DNA from: Pseudomonas furukawaii
GTDB lineage: Bacteria; Pseudomonadota; Gammaproteobacteria; Pseudomonadales; Pseudomonadaceae
Assembly (NCBI RefSeq): GCF_002355475.1
Contig: NZ_AP014862.1
Location: forward strand, 4,588,001-4,652,000
Length of the DNA: 64,000 nt
Direction of reading: 5' to 3'
Positions 34,782-62,821 of the stretch are shown piece after piece. Below the pieces are notes generated by a model. The model was not told the origin of the DNA. It saw only the letters and a program-made list of their open reading frames with translations, and searched no databases. The translations under genes and the position numbers were made by a program. Position 1 is the first letter of the stretch. Each line of letters starts with the position of its first letter.

Positions 34782-35285
34782 TCAAGCCACAAGATGGGAT
34801 ACGGGAATACTCACTTGCTGTTGTCGATTGAGGATGTTCAACAGGAGTATGACCCGTTGCTCGCCATCCATGGCGAGGAACAGCGCATCCATCTCCGCGA
34901 AGGGCCCGACCTGGACCTGGACCTTGTCGCCCGGGTTGAAGGCCGCACGGTGATCAGGCCGTTCACAACGCGACATGAGATGCTCGACGACCGCGTCAGG
35001 CACCCTCGAGGGCGCGCCAGAGAAGCTCACAACCCTCGCCACGCCTCGCGTTGAGCGCAACGCAGCCCAGTTGTCCTGGGCCCGGAGATGGACGAAGAGG
35101 TAACCCGGAAACAGGGGCTGGATGAGTCGCCGCAGCCGGCCACCCTTGAGACTTTCCACACTGAGGACCGGGCAGAAGCAATCGAAACCCTGGCGCTGGA
35201 GGTGCTCCTGGGCGCGCTCGTCCTGGCGTGCCTTGCATTGCACGAGATACCAGGCGATTTCAGGGAGAAGTATGTTTTTATCCAT
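34782..35285 (-). CDS. rfaH: RfaH, specialised NusG-paralogue antiterminator
   Basis: The 167-residue protein aligns along its length with RfaH. It has the NGN domain start WYLVQCKARQDERAQEHLQRQ, the core PLFPGYLFV, TRGVARVVSF and a C-terminal KOW part (GPFAEMDALFLAMDGEQRVILLLN). RfaH is recruited at ops elements and suppresses pausing and Rho termination in long operons. It is divergent from the 27-kb eCIS operon, whose leader carries an ops-like element. It carries about ten extra N-terminal residues compared with E. coli RfaH, and I found no alternative start. Confidence 0.9.
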   Translation of the reverse strand: MDKNILLPEIAWYLVQCKARQDERAQEHLQRQGFDCFCPVLSVESLKGGRLRRLIQPLFPGYLFVHLRAQDNWAALRSTRGVARVVSFSGAPSRVPDAVVEHLMSRCERPDHRAAFNPGDKVQVQVGPFAEMDALFLAMDGEQRVILLLNILNRQQQVSIPVSHLVA

Positions 35286-35822
35286 GGCCGTCCCTAGCGA
35301 AATAGATCCTCAGTCAGACGCTAGTTCCTCCCTGAAACCCACGCCGCCATGCAAATCGGCTTTCCGACTAGTGGTAGGGACCGCCTTCGGAGTTGAGGAC
35401 GCAACTTGTCCGCCGGTCGGAAATCACCCTCTTCCCACGCGGAAGGTTTGTCCCCCTTGAATGCCGAACTATCCTCAAGCCTTGTCCTCTGACAGCACTA
35501 ACTGAAGGCACTCTGCCATCAATTAATGCACATGGAATTGTGATCCCCAGTTAGTACACAAGTTCCAGATGAACAAACTTTCCCCCAACTTGCTGAAAGC
35601 GAGTGGCGGTAGCCTTGTCTCTGGAAAAACAACTGCACGGTCGACAAGGACGCGGCCCCATCCTCCCCCGCCCCACCGTGCCTCGCCGTTCCAGCGTCCC
35701 GCTGGACACGGCAGCTGTCCCGCCCCGCCCCAAGTCGAACCGAGTCATCCAAGAGTCCTCCAGGGACGCGTTCCGGCGCCGCCCTGGCTGGGTCCCCTGC
35801 ACAGCGCAAAGGAGTCGGCGTC
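35286..35822. other. 537-bp rfaH-eCIS intergenic leader
   Basis: This spacer separates divergent rfaH and the eCIS genes. It contains an inverted repeat CTTGA-N14-TCAAG (about 35456-35479), which may bind a regulator, and the ops-like element. I could not assign a convincing -35/-10 pair. No gene is supported. Confidence 0.6.
35605..35617 (+). promoter_or_regulatory. ops-like RfaH recruitment element
   Basis: GGCGGTAGCCTTG keeps the invariant GGCGGTAG core of the ops consensus and departs only near its 3' end. It lies on the coding strand of the eCIS operon, about 206 bp before the first start codon. The core can form a GGC-GGTA-GCC mini-hairpin, as exposed in known ops DNA. Confidence 0.65.
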
Positions 35823-37712
35823 ATGGTCCAAGTCAGCTATCCCGGTGTCTACATCGTCGAAAAGGCCAGCGGGGTACGCACCATCACCGGTGTCGCGACC
35901 TCCATCGCCGCCTTCGTCGGCTATACGCGCAAGGGCGTGCCCGACAAGGCCGTGGCCATCACCAGCTTCGCCGATTTCGAACGCGGCTACGGCGGCCTCG
36001 ACCGCGACAGCCCGCTCTCCTACGCGGTCCGGCAGTTCTTCCTCAACGGCGGTACCCAGGCCCTCATAGTGCGGGTGGCCGTCGGTCACGGCACCAGCGC
36101 CTGGGTGCTGGAGAACGGCGCCGGCGACCCGGTCCTCGAAGTCACTGCGGCCAGCCCCGGCACCTGGGGCAACGGCCTGCGGCTGAGCGTGCAGCACAGC
36201 GGCGTCCGCAACCCCGACAGCGACTTCAACCTGGTGGTGTCGCAGCTTCAGGCCGACGGCGCCACCCTTCTGCCGGTGGAAACCCATCGCAACCTCAACC
36301 TCGACGCCAACTCGGCTCAGTACGCCGTCTCGGTGATCAACAACGCCTCCGCCCTGATCCGCGTGGCCCGCAGCGGCGGCCTGACCTTCGCCGAGGCCGG
36401 GCGCGCGGTCAGCGGCGAGATCAGCAGCTTCCCCCTGGACCCGACCGGGACCACCATCGCCGGCACCCTGGATGGCACCACGCCCTTCGCGCTTCTCGTC
36501 GAAGGCGGGCCCTGGAACAGCGTCGGCGACCTGGTGACCTCCACCAACGCGGCCATAGTGAACGCCAGCCTGGCCGCCCAGTTGCTGGCCTCGGAAACCG
36601 GCGCCGATGGCGAGACTGGCAGCGATCACCTGACCCTGGAATCCCTGGTGCCCGGCGAGTCCTCCAGCGTGACCATCGCCGCCGGGGCCTTCGGCAGTCT
36701 CAGCGCCACCATCCACCTCGGGCTAGTCAACCAGGGCCGGGAATTCACCGGTGCCGCCGAGCACCGCCCGGCGGTGGTCGCCAACCAGATCCCCGCGACA
36801 CCCGGCGTGGACGGCACACCCGGCGACGGTACGGCCGTGGTCGGCAGCCCATCGATGAAGACCGGCATCCACGCACTGCTGGACGTGGACCTGTTCAACA
36901 TCCTGTCCATTCCGGAAACCTTCACCATGAGCGCCCTCGAGCAGGCCCTGGTGATTCCCGCCGCCACGGCCCTGTGCGAGGCCCGGCGGGCCTTCTACAT
37001 CGTCGACGCGCCGATCGACAGCACCCTGGCCACCATCGGCGGCTGGGCCAACGCCGCCTCCCAGTCGCGCAACGCCGCCACCTACTTCCCCGCCGTGCGC
37101 ATCGTCGACCCGCTGGACGGATTGCGGCCACGCGCCATGGCGCCCTCCGGCACCCTCGCCGGCGTCTATGCGCGCACCGACGCCACCCGTGGCGTGTGGA
37201 AGGCCCCCGCCGGCACCGATGCCGTACTCAACGGCGTGCTCGACCTGGCCCTGCCCGTCAACGACCTGGAGAACGGCCAGGTCAACCCGCTGGGGGTCAA
37301 CGTGCTGCGCAGTTTCCCCGCCTACGGAAGGGTCGCCTGGGGGGCGCGCACCATGAAGGGCGCCGACGCCCAGGCCGACGAGTACAAGTACATCCCCATC
37401 CGCCGTCTCGCCCTGTTCATCGAGGAAAGCCTCTACCGGGGCACCCAATGGGTGGTCTTCGAGCCGAACGACGAACCGCTCTGGGCGCAGATCCGCCTGA
37501 ACATAGGGGCCTTCATGAACGGCCTGTTCCGCCAGGGCGCCTTCCAGGGCAGGACGCAGCAGGAGGCCTTCTTCGTCAAATGCGACAAGGAGACCACCAC
37601 CCAGGCCGATCGCAACCTCGGCATCGTCAACATCCAGGTCGGTTTCGCCCCGCTGAAGCCGGCGGAATTCGTCGTTCTCACCATCCAGCAGATCGCCGGC
37701 GATCTGCAGTAA
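35823..37712 (+). CDS. eCIS tail sheath protein
   Basis: The 629-residue protein is a phage-type contractile sheath subunit. It has the family start (VSYPGVYIVEKASGVRTITGV), PDKAVAITSFADFERGYGG, and a conserved C-terminal domain (YGRVAWGARTMKGADAQADEYKYIPIRRL and FEPNDEPLWAQIRLNIGAF). The sheath contracts to drive the inner tube through a target membrane. Only one sheath gene is present, whereas Afp and PVC clusters carry three. AAAGGAG stands upstream of the ATG. It is the first structural gene of the operon. Confidence 0.95.
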   Translation: MVQVSYPGVYIVEKASGVRTITGVATSIAAFVGYTRKGVPDKAVAITSFADFERGYGGLDRDSPLSYAVRQFFLNGGTQALIVRVAVGHGTSAWVLENGAGDPVLEVTAASPGTWGNGLRLSVQHSGVRNPDSDFNLVVSQLQADGATLLPVETHRNLNLDANSAQYAVSVINNASALIRVARSGGLTFAEAGRAVSGEISSFPLDPTGTTIAGTLDGTTPFALLVEGGPWNSVGDLVTSTNAAIVNASLAAQLLASETGADGETGSDHLTLESLVPGESSSVTIAAGAFGSLSATIHLGLVNQGREFTGAAEHRPAVVANQIPATPGVDGTPGDGTAVVGSPSMKTGIHALLDVDLFNILSIPETFTMSALEQALVIPAATALCEARRAFYIVDAPIDSTLATIGGWANAASQSRNAATYFPAVRIVDPLDGLRPRAMAPSGTLAGVYARTDATRGVWKAPAGTDAVLNGVLDLALPVNDLENGQVNPLGVNVLRSFPAYGRVAWGARTMKGADAQADEYKYIPIRRLALFIEESLYRGTQWVVFEPNDEPLWAQIRLNIGAFMNGLFRQGAFQGRTQQEAFFVKCDKETTTQADRNLGIVNIQVGFAPLKPAEFVVLTIQQIAGDLQ

Positions 37713-62005: not shown

Positions 62006-62821
62006 ATGTACAGCGCCTTGCAGGAAGAGGCCATCCAGCGGGCCGGACGCAAGGGCGCCCCGACGCCCCAGGCCGCCCCCGCACCGCCGGCAGGACGCCC
62101 GCGCCGGTTCGCGCGCTCCAGCTGCGCCTGCGGTGGCGGCTGTCCGAACTGCCGGGAAGAGAGCCGCCCACCCGGTCCGCGCCAGGCCCGCGACGGCGAG
62201 GCCGCCACGGCCAGCGACGCGGCCGAGCCCCTGGCCGAACCCGCGGCCGCGCCCAGCTTCCGTGATTGCAGCGAACGCATCACCGGCATCACCGACGCCA
62301 ACGAACGGCTGGAAACCGCCCGCCAGCGCGCCCGGGAATACGTCGGCGCGGCACGCCGTGCCCTGGGCGCCGCGCCGGCGGCCGGCACCACCTACGAGAC
62401 GGCCCTGGGCCGCCACTTCATCACCCCCAGCGCCGCCGACCGCGCCACCATCGAGGACAACTACCGGCGGATTCTCGGCACCCTGGTGCCGGCCAACTAC
62501 ATCTGCAACAGCCAGAACATCTGCGAAGGCGAACAGGCCTTCTGGATCGAGGCCGACGACCTGGTTCACGTCTGCCGGCCATTCTGGGAGCTGTCGCCGA
62601 CCTGCCGCGCCATCATCCTCATCCACGAAGGCGCCCACGACGTCGGCATCGGCGTGGCCGGCGCGCATCCGCCGAACCGGGGCAGCGCGCAGTACCCCAC
62701 CGGCGACACCGCCGCCCCCGCCGGCCAGACCACCGCCGGGCGCATGGACAATCCGGATGCCTATGCCTTCTTCGGCGCACACATCTGGCGTGACACCGAT
62801 ACCGGAAGGCCCTGTTTCTAG
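62006..62821 (+). CDS. eCIS effector 3: aspzincin-like metallopeptidase with Cys motif but no DUF4157
   Basis: The 271-residue protein keeps the N-terminal C-x-C-x3-C-x2-C motif (Cys40-49) but lacks the DUF4157 domain. Its C-terminal domain carries a zinc peptidase motif IHEGAHDVG (His207, Glu208, His211) and the downstream NPDAYAFFGAHIW (Asn249-Tyr253). The latter resembles the NAdsYxxF of M35/lysine-specific metalloendopeptidases. The canonical aspartate ligand segment (GTxDxxYG) is not clear. AAGGAGGG precedes the ATG. It is the last gene of the eCIS operon. Confidence 0.78.
   Translation: MYSALQEEAIQRAGRKGAPTPQAAPAPPAGRPRRFARSSCACGGGCPNCREESRPPGPRQARDGEAATASDAAEPLAEPAAAPSFRDCSERITGITDANERLETARQRAREYVGAARRALGAAPAAGTTYETALGRHFITPSAADRATIEDNYRRILGTLVPANYICNSQNICEGEQAFWIEADDLVHVCRPFWELSPTCRAIILIHEGAHDVGIGVAGAHPPNRGSAQYPTGDTAAPAGQTTAGRMDNPDAYAFFGAHIWRDTDTGRPCF

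Follow-up and report, generated by a model that had tools for sequence, protein, structure and literature searches.

A divergent RfaH gene and a shifted ops-like element as candidate regulators of an eCIS operon in Pseudomonas furukawaii

The rfaH gene and the injection operon

The window, a stretch of 64,000 nucleotides from Pseudomonas furukawaii, contains an operon for a phage-tail-like injection system (eCIS) and, divergent from it, a gene for an RfaH-type regulator. In window coordinates the features are:

34782-35285, minus strand: rfaH, divergent from the eCIS operon; TIGR01955 score above cut-off
35503-35521, no strand assigned: imperfect palindrome TGAAGGCACTCTGCCATCA, possibly belonging to an operator or promoter; its GGCAC..TGCC part is conserved
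35605-35617, plus strand: ops-like element GGCGGTAGCCTTG, with an intact core and its TG at positions 12-13
35618-35822, plus strand: variable leader from the element to the sheath start codon; length and sequence vary among relatives
35823-37712, plus strand: sheath, first gene of the operon; PF17482 and PF04984
37726-62821, plus strand: remaining eCIS run, from profile matches and codon-usage tiling; provisional 3' end

The product of rfaH is 167 amino acids long, has an ATG start and scores 162.7 bits with the NCBIfam equivalog profile TIGR01955 (RfaH; cut-off 144.5) and 140.9 with PRK09014 (cut-off 124), while falling below the cut-offs for UpxY, NusG and LoaP. The first-pass annotation had described a clear rfaH divergent from the injection-system genes, and the equivalog scores and minus-strand position bear this out. 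The NusG-family genes of the genome are this rfaH and the housekeeping nusG, so it is the sole RfaH there. No RfaH was found in viral contigs, and all 1,246 plasmid RfaH records (40 of the 1,246 listed) are below 60% identity.

The operon encodes a sheath, a T4-gp19-like tube, a Pvc16_N protein, an AAA ATPase, an OB-domain spike, gp25, two baseplate-J proteins, Tail_P2_I and two eCIS_core (PF13699) proteins, with a large beta-helix protein also in the run behind the sheath; the sheath, tube, spike, baseplate, AAA ATPase and eCIS_core genes stand together at the locus, which identifies it as an eCIS. By codon-usage tiling, no gap between genes exceeds 16 bp in 35823-59063, and the last plus-strand gene ends at 62821, in agreement with the earlier description of a run of about 27 kb with nearly touching genes. 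The tube scores only 51.7 bits against the CIS1_fam cut-off of 220 and 55.3 against the CIS5 cut-off of 260, which points to an eCIS subtype other than the Afp/PVC type. Across 369 genomes of the class, the CIS1_fam profile gave 39 weak matches and none above its cut-off. Cargo genes of eCIS loci usually sit near the 3' end; near that of the present run, 62006-62821 has a weak match, under the Pfam cut-off, to M35 lysine-specific metallopeptidases. The G+C content is 61% in rfaH and 60% in the intergenic region vs 71% in the eCIS run, which fits separate origins.

The ops-like element

The element GGCGGTAGCCTTG lies 218 nt upstream of the sheath start codon at 35823 and differs from the 12-nt form GGCGGTAGNNTG by one mismatch, at position 12 (T instead of G). 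The ops core noted here in the first-pass annotation is indeed intact and on the eCIS coding strand, but its TG is found at positions 12-13 instead of 11-12, and the element is therefore classed as ops-like rather than canonical ops.

Significance of the bare motif by itself was rejected, as its counts are at background or lower: the window holds 51 two-mismatch ops matches (shuffle mean 41) and 26 copies of GGTAGC (shuffle mean 19), and the genome has 41 sites of GGCGGTAGN(2-3)TG against 107 for the reversed control pattern. Among 20,000 dinucleotide-shuffled versions of the 537-bp intergenic region, 55 had GGCGGTAG on the coding strand and 2 had GGCGGTAGCN(1-2)TG. The coding context of the 41 genomic sites, 40 of them taken from their own loci and the eCIS one from the window, was assessed by a codon score trained on the window genes, a heuristic. 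Of the 15 sites with C9, the state in eCIS leaders and in nearly all RfaH-linked ops sites seen here, only that of the eCIS leader is clearly non-coding by this score. Two other C9 sites (L127, L191) have weak codon scores and were judged coding from their open reading frames. It is by its position and its conservation in relatives, not by motif match, that the element stands out from chance.

Linkage of rfaH, element and eCIS across relatives

An RfaH of 67-100% identity occurs in six of 18 genus genomes (the present one included) and a sheath of 83-100% identity in the same six, with the two genes adjacent and divergent in 6/6; the other 12 lack both this rfaH and this eCIS. Since these genomes are related, the 18 are not independent trials. 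The same pair is present in P. akapageensis (RfaH 60%, sheath 73%), and the group is placed in Pseudomonas near P. resinovorans and P. boanensis. With a further locus in G208, a genome of another genus (sheath 81%), eight leaders of this eCIS subtype were available for comparison. The first-pass annotation had proposed conservation with the cluster in relatives as a check on its reading, and both parts are conserved: rfaH adjoins the eCIS in 7/8 loci of the subtype and the element is present in 8/8.

Leaders were searched for bare GCGGTAG in the 650 nt before the sheath, with no TG demanded, and this string occurs exactly once in each of the eight. The ops core C3 G4 G5 T6 A7 G8 is present throughout (8/8), as are C9 and T12-G13, while variation is seen at position 1 (G in seven leaders, T in that of P. 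akapageensis), position 10 (C, A or T) and position 11 (T or A); TG is thus at positions 12-13 in 8/8 leaders and at 11-12 in none. The element is the best-conserved 12-nt stretch of the leaders in a comparison anchored on patterns with TG at 12-13 or 13-14, so the claim for the TG rests on the bare-core search. The flanks are largely diverged in G001, P. akapageensis and G208, and the distance from element to ATG ranges from 211 to 462 nt. Intact amid diverged flanks and at changing distance, the element appears to be maintained by selection as a unit.

In G208 the shifted element stands without a local rfaH, and one RfaH of 49% identity is encoded elsewhere, beside canonical ops. The same-subtype eCIS of this genome (L091, 7876-11557) has a Ku-like gene, named by eye, in the place of rfaH.

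Linkage to RfaH is confined to this subtype among the loci compared. Nine Pseudomonadaceae eCIS loci of other subtypes (G287, G162, G227, G165, G245, G231, G683, G807 and G828) have no RfaH in the 20 kb covered at each locus (0/9), and GCGGTAG is missing from the 1 kb that precedes their sheath genes (0/9); neither RfaH nor GCGGTAG was found in four plasmid eCIS loci (Cupriavidus, Novosphingobium, Rhizobium and Ensifer; 12.5 kb each). G213 (a sheath piece with no tube), G077, G149, G157, G080 and G141 were not counted as eCIS controls, and weaker matches were treated likewise; 25 genomes of the genus of G080 have no sheath above 57%. Given that these related loci are free of RfaH linkage (0/9 and 0/4), the present subtype apparently gained it separately from the Afp/PVC-type loci.

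Further conserved sequence lies upstream of the element, where 35467-35541 is likely a promoter/operator region for a putative regulator. It includes AACTATCCT at 35467, conserved in 7/8 leaders, GGAATTGT at 35534, conserved in 6/8, and the palindrome at 35503-35521, of which the GGCAC..TGCC part is found in 6/8, these being the six of the genus. No sigma-70-like promoter was found in the leader region. Closer to rfaH, CCGACTA and TCGGAAA (35364-35423) form a partly inverted pair with a spacing of about 50 bp, conserved in 7/8 leaders; the sole leader without the pair is that of G208, which has no rfaH beside it, and the pair perhaps serves in control of rfaH.

The conserved block upstream of the element, together with the persistence of the element in G208 with no rfaH beside it, could be read to mean that the GGCGGTAG core is a leader feature of some other role, an RNA or operator element, whose linkage to RfaH is historical. 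We consider this very unlikely, as RfaH is known to be recruited at this very core, which the RfaH paralogs of the family mostly have nearby.

The RfaH protein and its relatives

Residues that touch ops have been reported for E. coli RfaH (PMC5995543), and when mapped onto the eCIS-linked proteins, K10, H20, R23, Q24, T72, R73, G74 and V75 are kept in 7/7, as is R16. At the contact positions the eCIS-linked proteins differ little from other RfaHs. The autoinhibited state of E. coli RfaH is stabilised by a salt bridge between Glu48 and R138 (PMC12168481), a feature of the E. coli protein and not a criterion for the RfaH family. R138 is kept in the eCIS RfaHs, and Glu48 is absent from all seven (Q in five, L in two).

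The AF2 model, built with a 30-row alignment, has a mean pLDDT of 73.3 and a C-terminal domain predicted at modest confidence to be helical, with helices at 130-136 and 141-154 (block pLDDT 62-80). The best Foldseek match to this model is E. coli RfaH bound to ops DNA (5ond_A; TM 0.70 and 0.85), followed by autoinhibited RfaH complexes.

In a tree of 54 proteins, the seven eCIS RfaHs form a clade (support 100/99) with three others, from P. dryadis (L056), a Pseudomonadaceae MAG and Azomonas (L059). Position 48 is Q in these three sisters as well, so that Glu48 is missing from 10/10 members of the clade, while it is present in 19/20 of the other RfaHs aligned. A clade of the eCIS RfaHs by themselves is not supported: linkage to eCIS requires two changes on the tree, and a single change in only 4% of bootstrap trees. 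The three sisters have canonical ops, GGCGGTAGCGTG, just downstream, and the genes after rfaH in P. dryadis and Azomonas are exopolysaccharide-like, as identified by eye. This mixture suggests, as the probable course, recruitment of a polysaccharide-type RfaH to the eCIS or the reverse change within the clade.

Nine other RfaHs (44-50% identity) were found in the genus, two each in the eCIS carriers G001, G014 and G016, besides their eCIS rfaH, and the rest in the non-carriers G006 and G010. Eight of the nine lie within 1 kb of GGCGGTAGCGTG, and the ninth has GGCGGTAGCGTT about 0.4 kb away. Canonical GGCGGTAGCGTG is absent from the window's own genome, and the eCIS RfaH seems, from the sites found, to have one target there. 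Where the eCIS RfaH is likewise the sole RfaH, G004 has two copies of GGCGGTAGCGTG and G011 one; of these three sites two score as coding and L214 is ambiguous.

These distributions bear on the idea that the protein is a general RfaH, serving surface-polysaccharide operons in trans and lying beside the eCIS by happenstance. That it is the only RfaH of its genome would suit such a role, as would the exopolysaccharide-type neighbours (assigned by eye) of its clade relatives. The idea is nevertheless unlikely, because the ortholog is missing from exactly the 12 of 18 genus genomes that have no eCIS and the canonical sites that accompany the other RfaHs of the genus are lacking from the genome or, in G004 and G011, largely coding-like.

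A one-base shift of the TG relative to canonical ops

RfaH recruitment is understood in detail mainly in E. coli, where the spacing from the RfaH-contacting core to the pause-inducing TG is fixed. The validated E. coli RfaH targets all have TG at ops positions 11-12, and the T11G substitution causes one of the strongest defects (PMC5995543). The G12C substitution abolishes the pause at U11, but recruitment of RfaH in vitro is not lost, and complexes stopped at C9, G10 or U11 can each take up RfaH (PMC5995543). Loading at C9 and G10 makes some slack in the register plausible.

Outside the eCIS loci the canonical spacing prevails. The pattern GGCGGTAG[CT]NTG is present in 27/34 RfaH loci without this eCIS (reversed control, 3 loci) and in 11/11 further RfaH loci (reversed control, 0 loci; L111, with the 38% RfaH of G077, was left out of these 11, which may repeat species of the 34), and in 0/5 eCIS loci of the same survey as the 34. 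The shifted form is found in 5/5 of those eCIS loci and in 3/34 of the others (reversed control, 1 of 34). The possibility that the shift tracks the RfaH subclade is not supported, as canonical ops accompanies three members of the clade, and the shifted form occurs in G208, which lacks an RfaH of that clade.

It is quite conceivable, if short of probable, that the element is a general ops usable by any cellular RfaH, with the shift as neutral slack and the neighbouring rfaH as a convenient copy. G208, whose distant RfaH lies by canonical ops and whose eCIS has the shifted element alone, is what such an arrangement would look like; the shared contact residues, the three same-clade RfaHs beside canonical ops and the loading of E. 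coli RfaH at C9, G10 or U11 (PMC5995543) are in keeping with it. It leaves unexplained why G001, G014 and G016 retain the eCIS rfaH despite two other RfaHs each, and neutrality does not predict a TG fixed at 12-13 in 8/8 leaders while positions 10 and 11 vary.

Proposed regulation of the eCIS operon

The rfaH and eCIS genes, the element, their linkage and conservation, and the kept contact residues are observed here, and an RfaH-type fold is predicted; on this evidence a cis-encoded, dedicated RfaH probably controls the eCIS operon. Its recruitment, antitermination and the dependence of the eCIS on it are inferred from E. coli RfaH and Serratia AnfA1. Under this dedicated control, polymerase starting upstream of 35605 would transcribe the ops-like element, and the non-template strand would form the C3-G8 hairpin, exposing G5 and T6. 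RfaH from the divergent gene would dock at the exposed bases and stay on polymerase for the roughly 27 kb of the run, where it would ward off NusG/Rho-dependent termination and also help translation. With termination kept off and translation helped, the promoter-distal eCIS genes could be expressed.

Two features of the proposed control are put forward with less assurance. If the pause follows the TG, it would move to U12, one base later than in canonical ops, and the missing Glu48 hints that autoinhibition may be looser in the eCIS RfaH. A pause at U12 instead of U11 would place the RfaH-binding hairpin one base further from the active site. That a 13-nt ops, a pause at U12 and a Glu48-less RfaH acting mainly in cis together make up a distinct loading geometry is a tentative suggestion that we regard as rather doubtful; if true, this geometry would insulate the injection operon from other RfaH/ops circuits in the cells that have them. 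These natural leaders, in which the TG is moved by one base with the core kept and whose neighbouring private RfaH has an altered autoinhibition contact, offer a direct test of whether pausing and docking are tied rigidly to each other.

Relation to known systems

The first-pass annotation had presented the pairing of RfaH with an eCIS as new, a claim that does not hold because afp/AnfA1 and the pvc ops, both from insect-associated bacteria, were already published (PMC6748792). RfaH operators are reported to precede the pvc operons of Photorhabdus, Xenorhabdus and Yersinia as well as the afp of Serratia entomophila, and AnfA1, a linked distant RfaH homologue, regulates afp positively (PMC6748792, the latter citing Hurst et al.). 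An attempted rfaH deletion in P. luminescens is reported to have failed. Regulation of eCIS operons by adjacent genes such as RfaH is described in PMC8213781 and PMC12961389, and S. entomophila toxins are among the targets of NusG paralogs, of which recent ones may be recruited in cis (PMC6391919). RfaH-like control of eCIS is already in print (afp/AnfA1, pvc ops and Geller 2021).

The TG shift conserved in 8/8 leaders and the loss of Glu48 in the RfaH clade look new. The literature searched mentions neither a shifted ops nor an RfaH that accompanies a Pseudomonas eCIS, a weak negative as most subscription journals lie outside its coverage; the available portions of PMC13015549, PMC7593976, PMC11001881 and PMC11150451 likewise contain neither. 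With the present locus, RfaH linkage reaches beyond the Afp/PVC-type loci and takes in a further eCIS subtype, in Pseudomonas.

One close parallel is afp with AnfA1, where an RfaH operator and a closely linked, RfaH-like positive regulator accompany an eCIS operon (PMC6748792), regulation in the window being predicted. In contrast to the window, where the tube is far from the CIS1_fam cut-off, afp is plasmid-borne and of the Afp type. The pvc class I/III operons (GGCGGTAGNNT) share an ops upstream of the first structural eCIS gene, but their ops has T at position 11 and the available part of PMC6748792 describes no dedicated rfaH next to them, whereas the window has TG at 12-13 and an adjacent rfaH. 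The Pseudomonadaceae RfaHs beside exopolysaccharide-type genes belong to the same family and differ in their canonical GGCGGTAGCGTG, which in L056, L058 and L059 lies downstream of rfaH on the same strand rather than in a divergent leader. The E. coli system resembles that of the window in the core and the contact residues, and the model of the window protein predicts, at modest confidence, an autoinhibited fold like that of E. coli RfaH (PMC5995543, PMC11001881); E. coli RfaH, however, serves several unlinked operons, has Glu48 and acts at targets with TG at 11-12 (PMC5995543).

A 'cryptic' pvc motif of Photorhabdus was considered as a further instance of the shifted ops and rejected, despite its resemblance to TGCGGTAGCTTTG of P. 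akapageensis: in 9/9 IMG/VR loci the motif is followed by A, and TG is lacking. The motif reads CAGGTTG[TC]TGCGGTAGCTATA in all nine (L181-L189), and a sheath relative lies near it in 8/9. As it contains the ops core CGGTAG without TG, an RfaH-like reader of this motif is conceivable.
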